Virus record (IMG/VR): IMGVR_UViG_3300007735_000764
Location: 1 to 58,889 of that record
Strand: one strand, 5' to 3'
Source of the DNA: a virus
DNA length: 58,889 nt
The notes below the pieces were generated by a model. The model was not told the origin of the DNA, ran no database searches, and saw only the letters and a list, made by a program, of their open reading frames with translations. The position numbers were made by a program, and so were the translations under genes. This document shows positions 13,705-15,866 of the stretch, in pieces (position 1 is the first letter of the stretch; each line of letters begins with the position of its first letter).

Positions 13705-13911
13705 ATGAACAACGATCAACGCAGCAAGCACGCCTTCTTCACTGCCGTGCAACGCATGGAGCGTGAGTCGAAGGGCCGTCGAGAGCACGACATCGAACAC
13801 CGCAAGCGATGGCTATTGAAGAGCATGACGGGCGGGTTCGGGAGGCACCAAGGCTCGCGGCCCAAGACGGTCACACTGGCGAAGCTATCGATCTTAGAGG
13901 ACAAGGAATGA
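13705..13911 (+). CDS. Hypothetical basic protein
   Basis: 68 residues, start at 13705 after a short AAGGACCGTTGACC leader. Basic helix-rich protein (KHAFFTAVQRMERESKGRRE, then RKRWLLKSMTGGFGRH). It ends in the overlap with the first cassette gene (ATGA). Nucleic-acid binding is possible on charge alone. Confidence 0.68.
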   Translation: MNNDQRSKHAFFTAVQRMERESKGRREHDIEHRKRWLLKSMTGGFGRHQGSRPKTVTLAKLSILEDKE

Positions 13912-14159
13912 GTGACAACCTCACAAAGCAAATCACAACTATGATTGAGATAATAACAGCGCAAAGCAGTGCAACGCCAATTGAAAAGTCAGTGATTGGC
14001 TTACTTTCTGATTGCCGTCACGAAGTAGATTTGGCGAACGCCGAAATAGAGCGGCTGCGCGATGCGCTGCGTGACATTATCGCAATTCCAAACAGCGAAG
14101 CTGCACAAGGAATTATGAAGGTGATTGCCCGCGCCGCGCTTGGGGAGGACAAGAAATGA
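13908..14159 (+). CDS. Cassette-array protein 1 (IERLR / ARAALGE family)
   Basis: 83 residues: variable N-terminus, then a helix with AEIERLRDALRDI and the shared tail ARAALGEDKK. The 17-mer GAAATAGAGCGGCTGCG at 14043-14059 and the 3' block at 14127-14159 recur almost unchanged in later genes. The tail block also contains the ribosome-binding site and overlapping start of the next gene. Function unknown; a coiled-coil is likely. Confidence 0.75.
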   Translation: MSDNLTKQITTMIEIITAQSSATPIEKSVIGLLSDCRHEVDLANAEIERLRDALRDIIAIPNSEAAQGIMKVIARAALGEDKK

Positions 14160-14434
14160 TAGACATTGTTGAACGGCTGCGGGTTTTTATCCGCTTTGAG
14201 CATCCAAAGAATTACGAAACGCACATCGTATGGCAAGCCGCCGACGAAATAGAGCGGCTGCGTGCTGCGCTGCGGGAAATAGCAAAGACAGACGTTCAAA
14301 CATGGGCAAAGGCCGCGCTTGAAAAACGCGATTGGGCAATTGTGGAGCGTATTTCCGAAGTCGATCAGCAGGGCATCGCTTGCCGTGCTTTGGCAGAAGT
14401 AGGAGCCCGCGCCGCGCTTGGGGAGAAAGAGTGA
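14156..14434 (+). CDS. Cassette-array protein 2
   Basis: 92 residues starting MIDIVERLRVFIRFEH, a head shared with cassette protein 6 (MTDIVERVRALL). It carries ADEIERLRAALREI in the middle and the tail ARAALGEKE. ATGA overlap with the upstream gene. Probably helical throughout; no known function. Confidence 0.75.
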   Translation: MIDIVERLRVFIRFEHPKNYETHIVWQAADEIERLRAALREIAKTDVQTWAKAALEKRDWAIVERISEVDQQGIACRALAEVGARAALGEKE

Positions 14435-14670
14435 TGACTGATTATGATCTAAGCATCCACAGCAACCCCGATGCTATGGCGTGGGCGAAGTTTTTTGTTG
14501 AAACAACAAAAGATTGGGACCGGGATTTATTCCGTGATGAAGAACTGATGGTGTCGTGGTTCGCAAACGCCATGATGGCAATGCACGATCATTTGATGGG
14601 TGGCCCTATTAATGGGGATCACGCGCAATGGCTGCTAGACCGCGCCGCGCTTGGGGAGGGGAAGGAATGA
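14434..14670 (+). CDS. Cassette-array protein 3
   Basis: 78 residues with a different body (HSNPDAMAWAKFFVETTKDW, then MVSWFANAMMAMHDHLMGG). It lacks the IERLR helix but ends with the array tail DRAALGEGKE. The body resembles small phage proteins described by the pattern PDAxAWAxxFxET, but no function is known. TGATG junction with the previous gene. It shows that the tail module can be attached to an unrelated head. Confidence 0.75.
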   Translation: MTDYDLSIHSNPDAMAWAKFFVETTKDWDRDLFRDEELMVSWFANAMMAMHDHLMGGPINGDHAQWLLDRAALGEGKE

Positions 14671-14927
14671 GTGATATAGCAACATCACTGATTAGTGATG
14701 AAGAACGCGAATATCTGATTTTGAAGAACCGCGCCAATACAGCGGCGGATGACGGAACATATGAATGGGCGCTTAACGAAATAGAGCGGCTGCGTGAGGC
14801 GCTGTGTGACTGCCATCATGTTCTGCATAAACTGATGGCTATCGTCCCCGGAAACGATGCGGCTGTTGATGAAATGGCAAAGGTAATGAAAAAGGCCCGC
14901 GCCGCACTTGGGGAGGGGAAGGAATGA
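14667..14927 (+). CDS. Cassette-array protein 4
   Basis: 86 residues; unique N-terminus (SDIATSLISDEEREYLILK), NEIERLREALCDCHHVLH helix, then ARAALGEGKE. Overlaps its neighbours by four bases on each side. Function unknown. Confidence 0.75.
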   Translation: MSDIATSLISDEEREYLILKNRANTAADDGTYEWALNEIERLREALCDCHHVLHKLMAIVPGNDAAVDEMAKVMKKARAALGEGKE

Positions 14928-15211
14928 GGGACATGATGGACTATTACGAGGAACTGGTCGCTGAAAACGACAGGCTGAAGGCTGTCCTCGATATCAAGGA
15001 ACGGGAATTAAAGGCGGCGCGGAAGGTTGTCTACGAGGCATACTGGCACTTGGCCTATCAGTGGCAGTCGCACCTGTTTGAGGCTCCTCCGACGAAGCCG
15101 TGGCACGTGGACATGTCGGTCTTTGCCCCGGAGGTTTATCCGATGATGACAAAGTCGGAGCAGGAACTGTTCAACGCCTTGAAGGTCTATGAGGGGGCAA
15201 TGAAGTCATGA
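14924..15211 (+). CDS. Hypothetical coiled-coil protein within the cassette array
   Basis: 95 residues. A long N-terminal coiled coil (YYEELVAENDRLKAVLDIKE, then RELKAARKVVYEAYWHLAYQ) precedes a Pro/aromatic segment (FEAPPTKPWHVDM). This is the only gene of the array without the R-A-A-L-G-E tail, ending GAMKS. It keeps the ATGA coupling on both sides. Confidence 0.72.
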   Translation: MRDMMDYYEELVAENDRLKAVLDIKERELKAARKVVYEAYWHLAYQWQSHLFEAPPTKPWHVDMSVFAPEVYPMMTKSEQELFNALKVYEGAMKS

Positions 15212-15486
15212 CGGATATTGTGGAACGTGTCCGCGCTTTGCTTGGCGATACCAATGAAGAGCAGGACACCATCAACGAAGCCGCCGACGAAATAGAGCGG
15301 CTGCGTGAGGCGCTGCGGGAGATGCTTTCAGTGGCAGAGGTGGATCAGTTGGAAAACCTTTCGATCTGCGACATTGGAAGTGAACGATCAAAGATGAAAA
15401 GCCGCGCTGTGGCATCAAGGTGCGGAATGTTGCTTGGGAAACTACGCAAGATTGCCCGGGCCGCGCTTGGGGAGGACGAGAAATGA
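15208..15486 (+). CDS. Cassette-array protein 6
   Basis: 92 residues combining the head DIVERVRALLGD, the shared helix AADEIERLREALREML and the tail ARAALGEDEK. Head and helix are shared with cassette protein 2, while the middle differs, which suggests exchange of segments. ATGA overlap on both sides. Confidence 0.75.
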   Translation: MTDIVERVRALLGDTNEEQDTINEAADEIERLREALREMLSVAEVDQLENLSICDIGSERSKMKSRAVASRCGMLLGKLRKIARAALGEDEK

Positions 15487-15866
15487 CATGCGTCACAGTC
15501 CTCCTCCTCAACCTGATCTGCGGCACGCCTTACGCTGTCGATGGGGACACGCTGCGATTCGGTAAGCTATCCGTCCGGCTATGGGGTGTCGATGCTGCCG
15601 AGTTGCATGAACCCGGAGGGGCAAACGCTCGCCAGGTTTTGCAAAACCTGGCCGGCCGGAAGACCGTTTGGTGTCGAGTCCGAACGATGGACGGCTATGG
15701 CCGGCACGTCGCCCGCTGCTATGTCGGATCTGTCGAAATCAATCGAGAGGTCGTGGCCCGCGGCGCCGCATTGGATTGCCGGCGCTACTCGGGCGGGGCC
15801 TTCGCATCTGTCGAACCTGTCGGGGTCAGGCTCAGATTGAGCCAGAAGCCCTACTGTAAGGCTTGA
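15483..15866 (+). CDS. Staphylococcal nuclease-like (SNase) protein
   Basis: 127 residues from the ATG overlapping the cassette stop. The SNase core is visible: VDGDT (19-23), R32, a GVDAAE segment with D37 and E40, and YGRHVARCY with R74, matching the calcium and catalytic layout of thermonucleases. The first 15 residues (MTCVTVLLLNLICGT) are hydrophobic and could export or anchor it. A TCGA-core repeat runs through codons near 15726-15736 and 15805-15822. Role may be host DNA degradation or nucleotide scavenging. Confidence 0.8.
   Translation: MTCVTVLLLNLICGTPYAVDGDTLRFGKLSVRLWGVDAAELHEPGGANARQVLQNLAGRKTVWCRVRTMDGYGRHVARCYVGSVEINREVVARGAALDCRRYSGGAFASVEPVGVRLRLSQKPYCKA

Follow-up and report, generated by a model that had tools for sequence, protein, structure and literature searches.

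A locus in a virus genome probably serves as a cassette site, at which small accessory genes appear to be assembled from interchangeable halves at two joints, with crossovers that would arise by pairing between copies of these joints. The window, that is the whole stretch of DNA analysed, comprises the 58,889 bp of one virus record, and the locus consists of six small overlapping genes at 13908-15486 with one conserved flank gene on either side (Table 1). Neighbouring array genes overlap by ATGA, with the exception of genes 2 and 3, for which the overlap is TGATG. The initial annotation had described an identical end block in five of the six genes, an exact 17-mer in four, a third gene (14434) without the shared helix and a fifth gene (14924) without the tail, all of which was found again: the block is present at the ends of genes 1, 2, 3, 4 and 6, and four copies of the 17-mer were located. 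The joints also close the array at both ends, as the upstream flank gene terminates in a tail-like sequence and the last tail enters the fixed nuclease gene. The G+C content of the array is 52%, lower than that of the whole window (55%) and of the two flank genes (58% and 62%).

Table 1. Coordinates of the cassette array, its flank genes and its putative joints in the window.
Feature	Position	Strand	Remarks
Upstream flank gene, conserved	13705..13911	+	terminates in GAGGACAAGGAATGA; marks the left boundary of the exchangeable interval
Array gene 1, 83 aa	13908..14159	+	front half, helix joint, back half and tail joint (from ORF and repeats)
Array gene 2, 92 aa	14156..14434	+	back half in common with L039
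Array gene 3, 78 aa	14434..14670	+	no helix joint; N-terminal core of about residues 1-54
Array gene 4, 86 aa	14667..14927	+	back half also in L010 and L044
Array gene 5, 95 aa	14924..15211	+	whole-gene cassette without tail joint or helix joint
Array gene 6, 92 aa	15208..15486	+	back half also in L019 and L006
Downstream flank gene, conserved, SNase-like nuclease	15483..15866	+	Pfam SNase, 2.6e-8
Helix joint copy 1	14043..14059	+	exact 17-mer
Helix joint copy 2	14246..14262	+	exact 17-mer
Helix joint copy 3	14778..14794	+	exact 17-mer
Helix joint copy 4	15289..15305	+	exact 17-mer
Tail joint 1	14127..14159	+	RAALGE codons, Shine-Dalgarno and ATGA
Tail joint 2	14405..14437	+	end of gene 2
Tail joint 3	14638..14670	+	end of gene 3
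Tail joint 4	14895..14927	+	end of gene 4
Tail joint 5	15454..15486	+	end of gene 6; right edge of the exchangeable interval

The tail joint is a block of 33 bp, which combines the codons for R-A-A-L-G-E, a GGGGAGG Shine-Dalgarno sequence and the ATGA start of the next gene. Four independent encodings of A-R-A-A-L would agree by chance at these five tail codons with a probability of only ~3e-9. When the comparison was restricted to cases with unrelated neighbouring sequence, tail joints were closer to each other within arrays (distance 0.156) than between arrays (0.236; permutation p 0.0005), and for helix joints the difference in likeness within and between arrays was not significant (p 0.13). 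In L010 (3532-4002), a tail joint without a stop codon has apparently fused two cassettes, and the resulting long gene still ends in a second tail.

The 17-mer GAAATAGAGCGGCTGCG lies within a conserved stretch of ~30 bp, ADEIERLREALR, and no further copy with up to three mismatches was found elsewhere in the window, while shuffled sequence contained 0.16 copies on average and never reached four. Codon identity exceeds what the shared peptide accounts for, as Ile is encoded by ATA and Arg by CGG in all four copies, codons that account for 6.9% and 14% of the Ile and Arg codons of the phage, respectively; had E-I-E-R-L been encoded independently four times, all five codons would coincide with a probability of ~1e-6. 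At loci fetched solely by tail patterns, seven of nine helix Ile codons are ATA, compared with 54 of the 250 Ile codons outside the helix in tail genes. Judged on DNA identity, the 17-mer helix is a second joint that lies within the gene, so that what is exchanged is in many cases a half-gene. Two helix joints per gene are present in L019 (3968-4381) and in L013 (2194-2532, reverse strand), as if a segment had been inserted at the helix. A third joint variant is possible in L063, L069 and L075, which carry a AADRIDALEKAL helix with an RAALGEGE tail; L069 and L075 have a common back half and different front halves, and L075 may be an isolate genome, judging by its contig name.

The relatives of this locus that were compared come from metagenomic virus contigs, except for a few with contig names that suggest isolates; a DNA search of the locus against a named phage collection gave no match, and protein searches for relatives returned one weak match or none. 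With the downstream nuclease gene as query, five loci were retrieved from viral contigs (L019 and L273-L276), all of which encode a nuclease 97-98% identical to that of the window, and L016, L028 and L078 were found with both flank proteins as queries, while L070, L076 and L077 contain the left flank gene alone in the available sequence. L273, L274 and L275 represent one arrangement recovered from three metagenomes at 99.9-100% identity, and L276 and L019 are different phages. The interval between the same flanks spans 1572 bp in the window, 1310 bp in L019, 777 bp in L078, 387 bp in L016 and L028, 284 bp in L276 and 257 bp in L273-L275, and these intervals of differing length hold different genes. 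Alignments of related phage loci with the window stop at 13911 or a few bases from it, which in the comparison with L274 is where the stop codon of the upstream flank gene overlaps the next start; homology with relatives returns on the right at 15449-15460, within the last tail; along the edges, identity is lost and regained at GGAGGACAAGGAATGA and at GCGCTTGGGGAGG. As the same arrangement was assembled independently more than once (L273/L274/L275 and L018/L050/L054), these are not assembly chimaeras. As read from these alignments, a fixed site undergoes gain, loss and replacement of cassettes. A second variable site lies just upstream, between 13696 and 13705 of the window, and holds a gene resembling a DNA cytosine methyltransferase in L276 (3106-3975) and an HTH-regulator-like gene with two other small genes in L019 (3114-3768), with the translations judged by eye in both cases.

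The exchange of half-genes is seen most directly between L274 and L276, which are ~95% identical around the locus and have a single array gene each: the front halves of these genes are nearly identical and the back halves unrelated, with identity fading within the joint near GGCTGCGTGAGGCG and resuming at GCCCGCG of the tail. In the reciprocal arrangement, gene 4 of the window and its counterpart in L010 have unrelated front halves between an identical CTTGGGGAGGGGAAGGAATGAG and an identical GAAATAGAGCGGCTGCG; the preceding tail and ribosome-binding block is also the same, as is the back half, with identity beginning at CGAAATAGAGCGG. The back half of gene 4 is joined to three unrelated front halves (window, L010 and L044). 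The back half of gene 6 recurs in L019 (97% DNA identity over 191 bp, with an unrelated front half) and in L006 (95% DNA identity), and that of gene 2 in a gene of L039 (2081-2374; 88% DNA identity, again with an unrelated front half), while two genes of one phage, L036, have a common front half and differing back halves. Gene 5 travels whole, and its match to the relative in L044 starts at the preceding tail joint (14897); for the front half of gene 1 no relative was found among the fetched loci. L018 and L039 are collinear at 92-93% identity on both sides of a replaced block of 1.1 kb, the joints of which are at tail modules, and in their last gene the back half is replaced from helix to tail. 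These alignments show half-genes and whole genes of near-identical DNA in differing combinations and numbers across related and less related phages. The initial annotation had proposed a set of exchangeable cassettes, to be supported if relatives had cassette-level gain, loss or replacement with breakpoints inside the shared modules and refuted if they had a fixed order with collinear point divergence only; the former is what the relatives contain and the latter is not, hence the proposal is supported, with an amended unit, which is often the half-gene, and its premise that homology at the joints is the cause remains an inference.

For a survey across arrays, 48 array regions were reduced to 35 by removal of near-copies, and joints were defined with genes taken from ORFs and helices from protein similarity, since DNA patterns alone miss diverged joints. 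The two joint kinds make up 33% of array sequence and account for 138 of 175 distinct shared-block ends, compared with 57 expected (nominal p ~4e-36, the ends not being fully independent), and of 183 end pairs, 137 have both members at one and the same kind of joint (93 junction-junction, 44 helix-helix). With joints called in this way, shared-block ends are shown to concentrate at the joints. Splitting the 65 distinct helix genes at the helix gives 35 clusters of front halves and 43 of back halves, which occur in 58 different pairings; ten of the front clusters are paired with more than one back cluster, although at least one of these ten is broad and owes its cohesion to a common DIVERLR start, and eight of the back clusters are found with two to five front clusters.

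Under the favoured reading, crossovers would occur when one joint copy pairs by homology with another on the DNA of a co-infecting or resident phage, by means of phage or host annealing or by template switching. As both joints preserve reading frame, helix register and start signal, most exchanges should yield an expressed, foldable small protein, and the products may be early accessory proteins under selection for diversity, for example by hosts or competing phages, a function that is inferred. That joint homology directs the crossovers is likewise inferred, on the basis of in-register joins and identity at synonymous positions. The length of the joints, ~30 bp, is near the minimum usually given for homologous recombination, and no recombinase was recognised among the proteins scanned, which were a subset of the ORFs.

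The same joins could have been produced by selection only, if illegitimate recombination occurs anywhere and the survivors are those joined at the helix or at the gene end, with joints kept for folding and translational coupling and not for pairing. Such conservation could be understood from the Shine-Dalgarno sequence and overlapping start held by the tail and from the position of the other joint within a predicted helix (at low to moderate confidence), and breakpoints at gene borders also occur outside the array, in the adjacent early region, where no tail module was noted, hence exchange between genes does not need the module. Three observations speak against it: joint copies agree even at synonymous positions, one of them in a rare codon, joins are in register as predicted by homologous pairing, and tail joints resemble each other more within an array than between arrays. 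Selection acting on illegitimate recombinants therefore cannot be dismissed, but we regard it as an unlikely reading. A dedicated site-specific system, integron-like or shufflon-like, could move the cassettes and would fit their constant boundaries, yet the joints are inside coding sequence, block ends are scattered across each ~30-bp joint instead of being fixed at one base, and no site-specific recombinase was recognised among the scanned subset of ORFs, which makes such a system very improbable. Local duplication of one ancestor, with helix and tail conserved and bodies diverged beyond recognition, would yield a tandem array with common motifs, and duplications do occur (as the front half common to the two L036 genes indicates), but it is ruled out as the main explanation and has almost no standing left, since shared halves are 88-100% DNA-identical next to unrelated partner halves and gene number and identity differ between phages that are ~95% identical around the locus.

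A second set of joints, unrelated in sequence and arranged in the same way, was encountered in other phages through gene 3. The N-terminal core of this gene (window 14434-14594, SDYD-SIHSNPDA-AWAKFF...AMMAMHDH) has 107 relatives in viral contigs with many different C-termini, and 56 unique core sequences were compared by C-terminus: only four, including the gene of the window, have an AALG/AALK-type tail under a strict pattern, others have an IERLR helix and various ends, and still others continue from the core into R-T-W-V-G-L-T ... A-K-L-K-E-K-N. The K-L-K-E-K-N ending is encoded by GCCAAACTAAAGGAGAAGAACACATGA, which contains the residues, the Shine-Dalgarno sequence and the overlapping start in one block. 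In this second pool (L143-L158 and loci from L277 on), a W-V-G-L-T-D-E-E-I joint is combined with an E-A-K-L-K-E-K-N-T tail and AAGGAG plus ATGA. Among the matches listed, at least 138 W-joint genes form 77 clusters by front half and 116 by back half, with 134 pairings between them, and, again among the matches listed, 83 block ends fall at the tail (25 expected) and 45 at the W joint (22 expected) out of 229 sites. At least two of the joint systems use the gene 3 core as a front cassette, and further joints of the second pool are possible at E-P-V-A-W and L-Y-T-A-P-P. The identical layout built from unrelated sequence suggests convergence. A broader reading, offered tentatively and held with less than even confidence, is that phages have repeatedly evolved a combinatorial small-protein format, in which pools of half-genes have pool-specific joints that are DNA-identical because they promote exchange, and in which a lineage could continually obtain new genes, in frame and coupled in translation, from a library held in common. 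Two or more joint sets unrelated in sequence do exist (IERLR/RAALGE and WVGLT/KLKEKN).

The array proteins gave no convincing family in Pfam, PHROGs, NCBIfam or PADLOC, and none had any Pfam match above the curated cut-off, the Ead/Ea22 and DUF551 profiles included; an AbiEi assignment for gene 1, the best family match, was rejected as chance at E = 0.003. Single-sequence structure models are all helical at low to moderate confidence (pLDDT 59 and 74), and they place the joint mid-way along one long predicted helix in gene 2 and in a predicted helix of 21 residues in gene 6. The array sits among small rightward genes with replication genes further on, a position that fits an early accessory region. 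The Pelagibacter phages HTVC027P and HTVC023P are distant relatives of the phage (terminase identity 61% and 56%, polymerase 50% and 52%, respectively). A 20-mer genome scan matched five MAG contigs, but as these are labelled as several different phyla, the host is not identified.

Recombination at boundary sequences has precedents. In the linker model of phage mosaicism, short conserved DNA at module borders was proposed to allow exchange by homologous recombination (cited in PMC3029335), with the remark that such sequences cannot be found at most mosaic borders, for which reason mosaicism is often ascribed to illegitimate recombination. The arrays do have short conserved sequences where the exchanged modules meet, but, unlike in the linker model, the boundary is repeated at five of six genes, encodes a protein tail together with the ribosome-binding site and start, and is accompanied by a second joint that splits genes in half. 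In T4-type phages, promoter-terminator cassettes termed PeSLs are repeated expression signals thought to mediate the shuffling of modules (Arbiol 2010 and Comeau 2014, via PMC4503421), which resembles the arrays; going by that secondary account, PeSLs are promoter-terminator motifs, whereas the array joints are coding, carry a Shine-Dalgarno sequence and couple translation instead of transcription. The small early protein Ea22, known from lambda and Stx phages, has a common N-terminal and coiled-coil part and unrelated C-terminal parts (PMC10834534, PMC7093339), similar to the constant helical middle and exchangeable C-terminal part of array genes (helix prediction of low to moderate confidence), but Ea22 is a single gene with few variants and does not form a tandem array whose members end in a repeated module. 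Smug et al. (PMC10684548) described domain shuffling, with fragments common to otherwise unrelated phage proteins; their sequence-based measure requires 50 or more aligned residues, and the emphasis is on proteins of receptor binding, lysis and replication, whereas most array halves are shorter than 50 residues. The initial annotation knew of no defined system of recombination by boundaries; the principle of exchange at short conserved boundaries is, however, a known idea in phage genomics (cited in PMC3029335). No description of genes arrayed in tandem with one joint inside the gene and another at its end was found in open-licence literature, and an earlier one may exist. Boundary-sequence recombination and C-terminal swapping, as in Ea22, are known, and the two-joint combinatorial array is, as far as found, undescribed.

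The origin and function of most small early phage genes are unknown, and the arrays show one concrete route by which such genes are made and exchanged: half-genes are joined in frame at helices identical in DNA, and the tail brings along the start signal for the gene that follows. Unlike at most phage mosaic borders, boundary homology is present at most borders of these arrays, and it can be recoded. This organisation may also explain why family databases fail on such proteins, as the family would be the half and not the gene.
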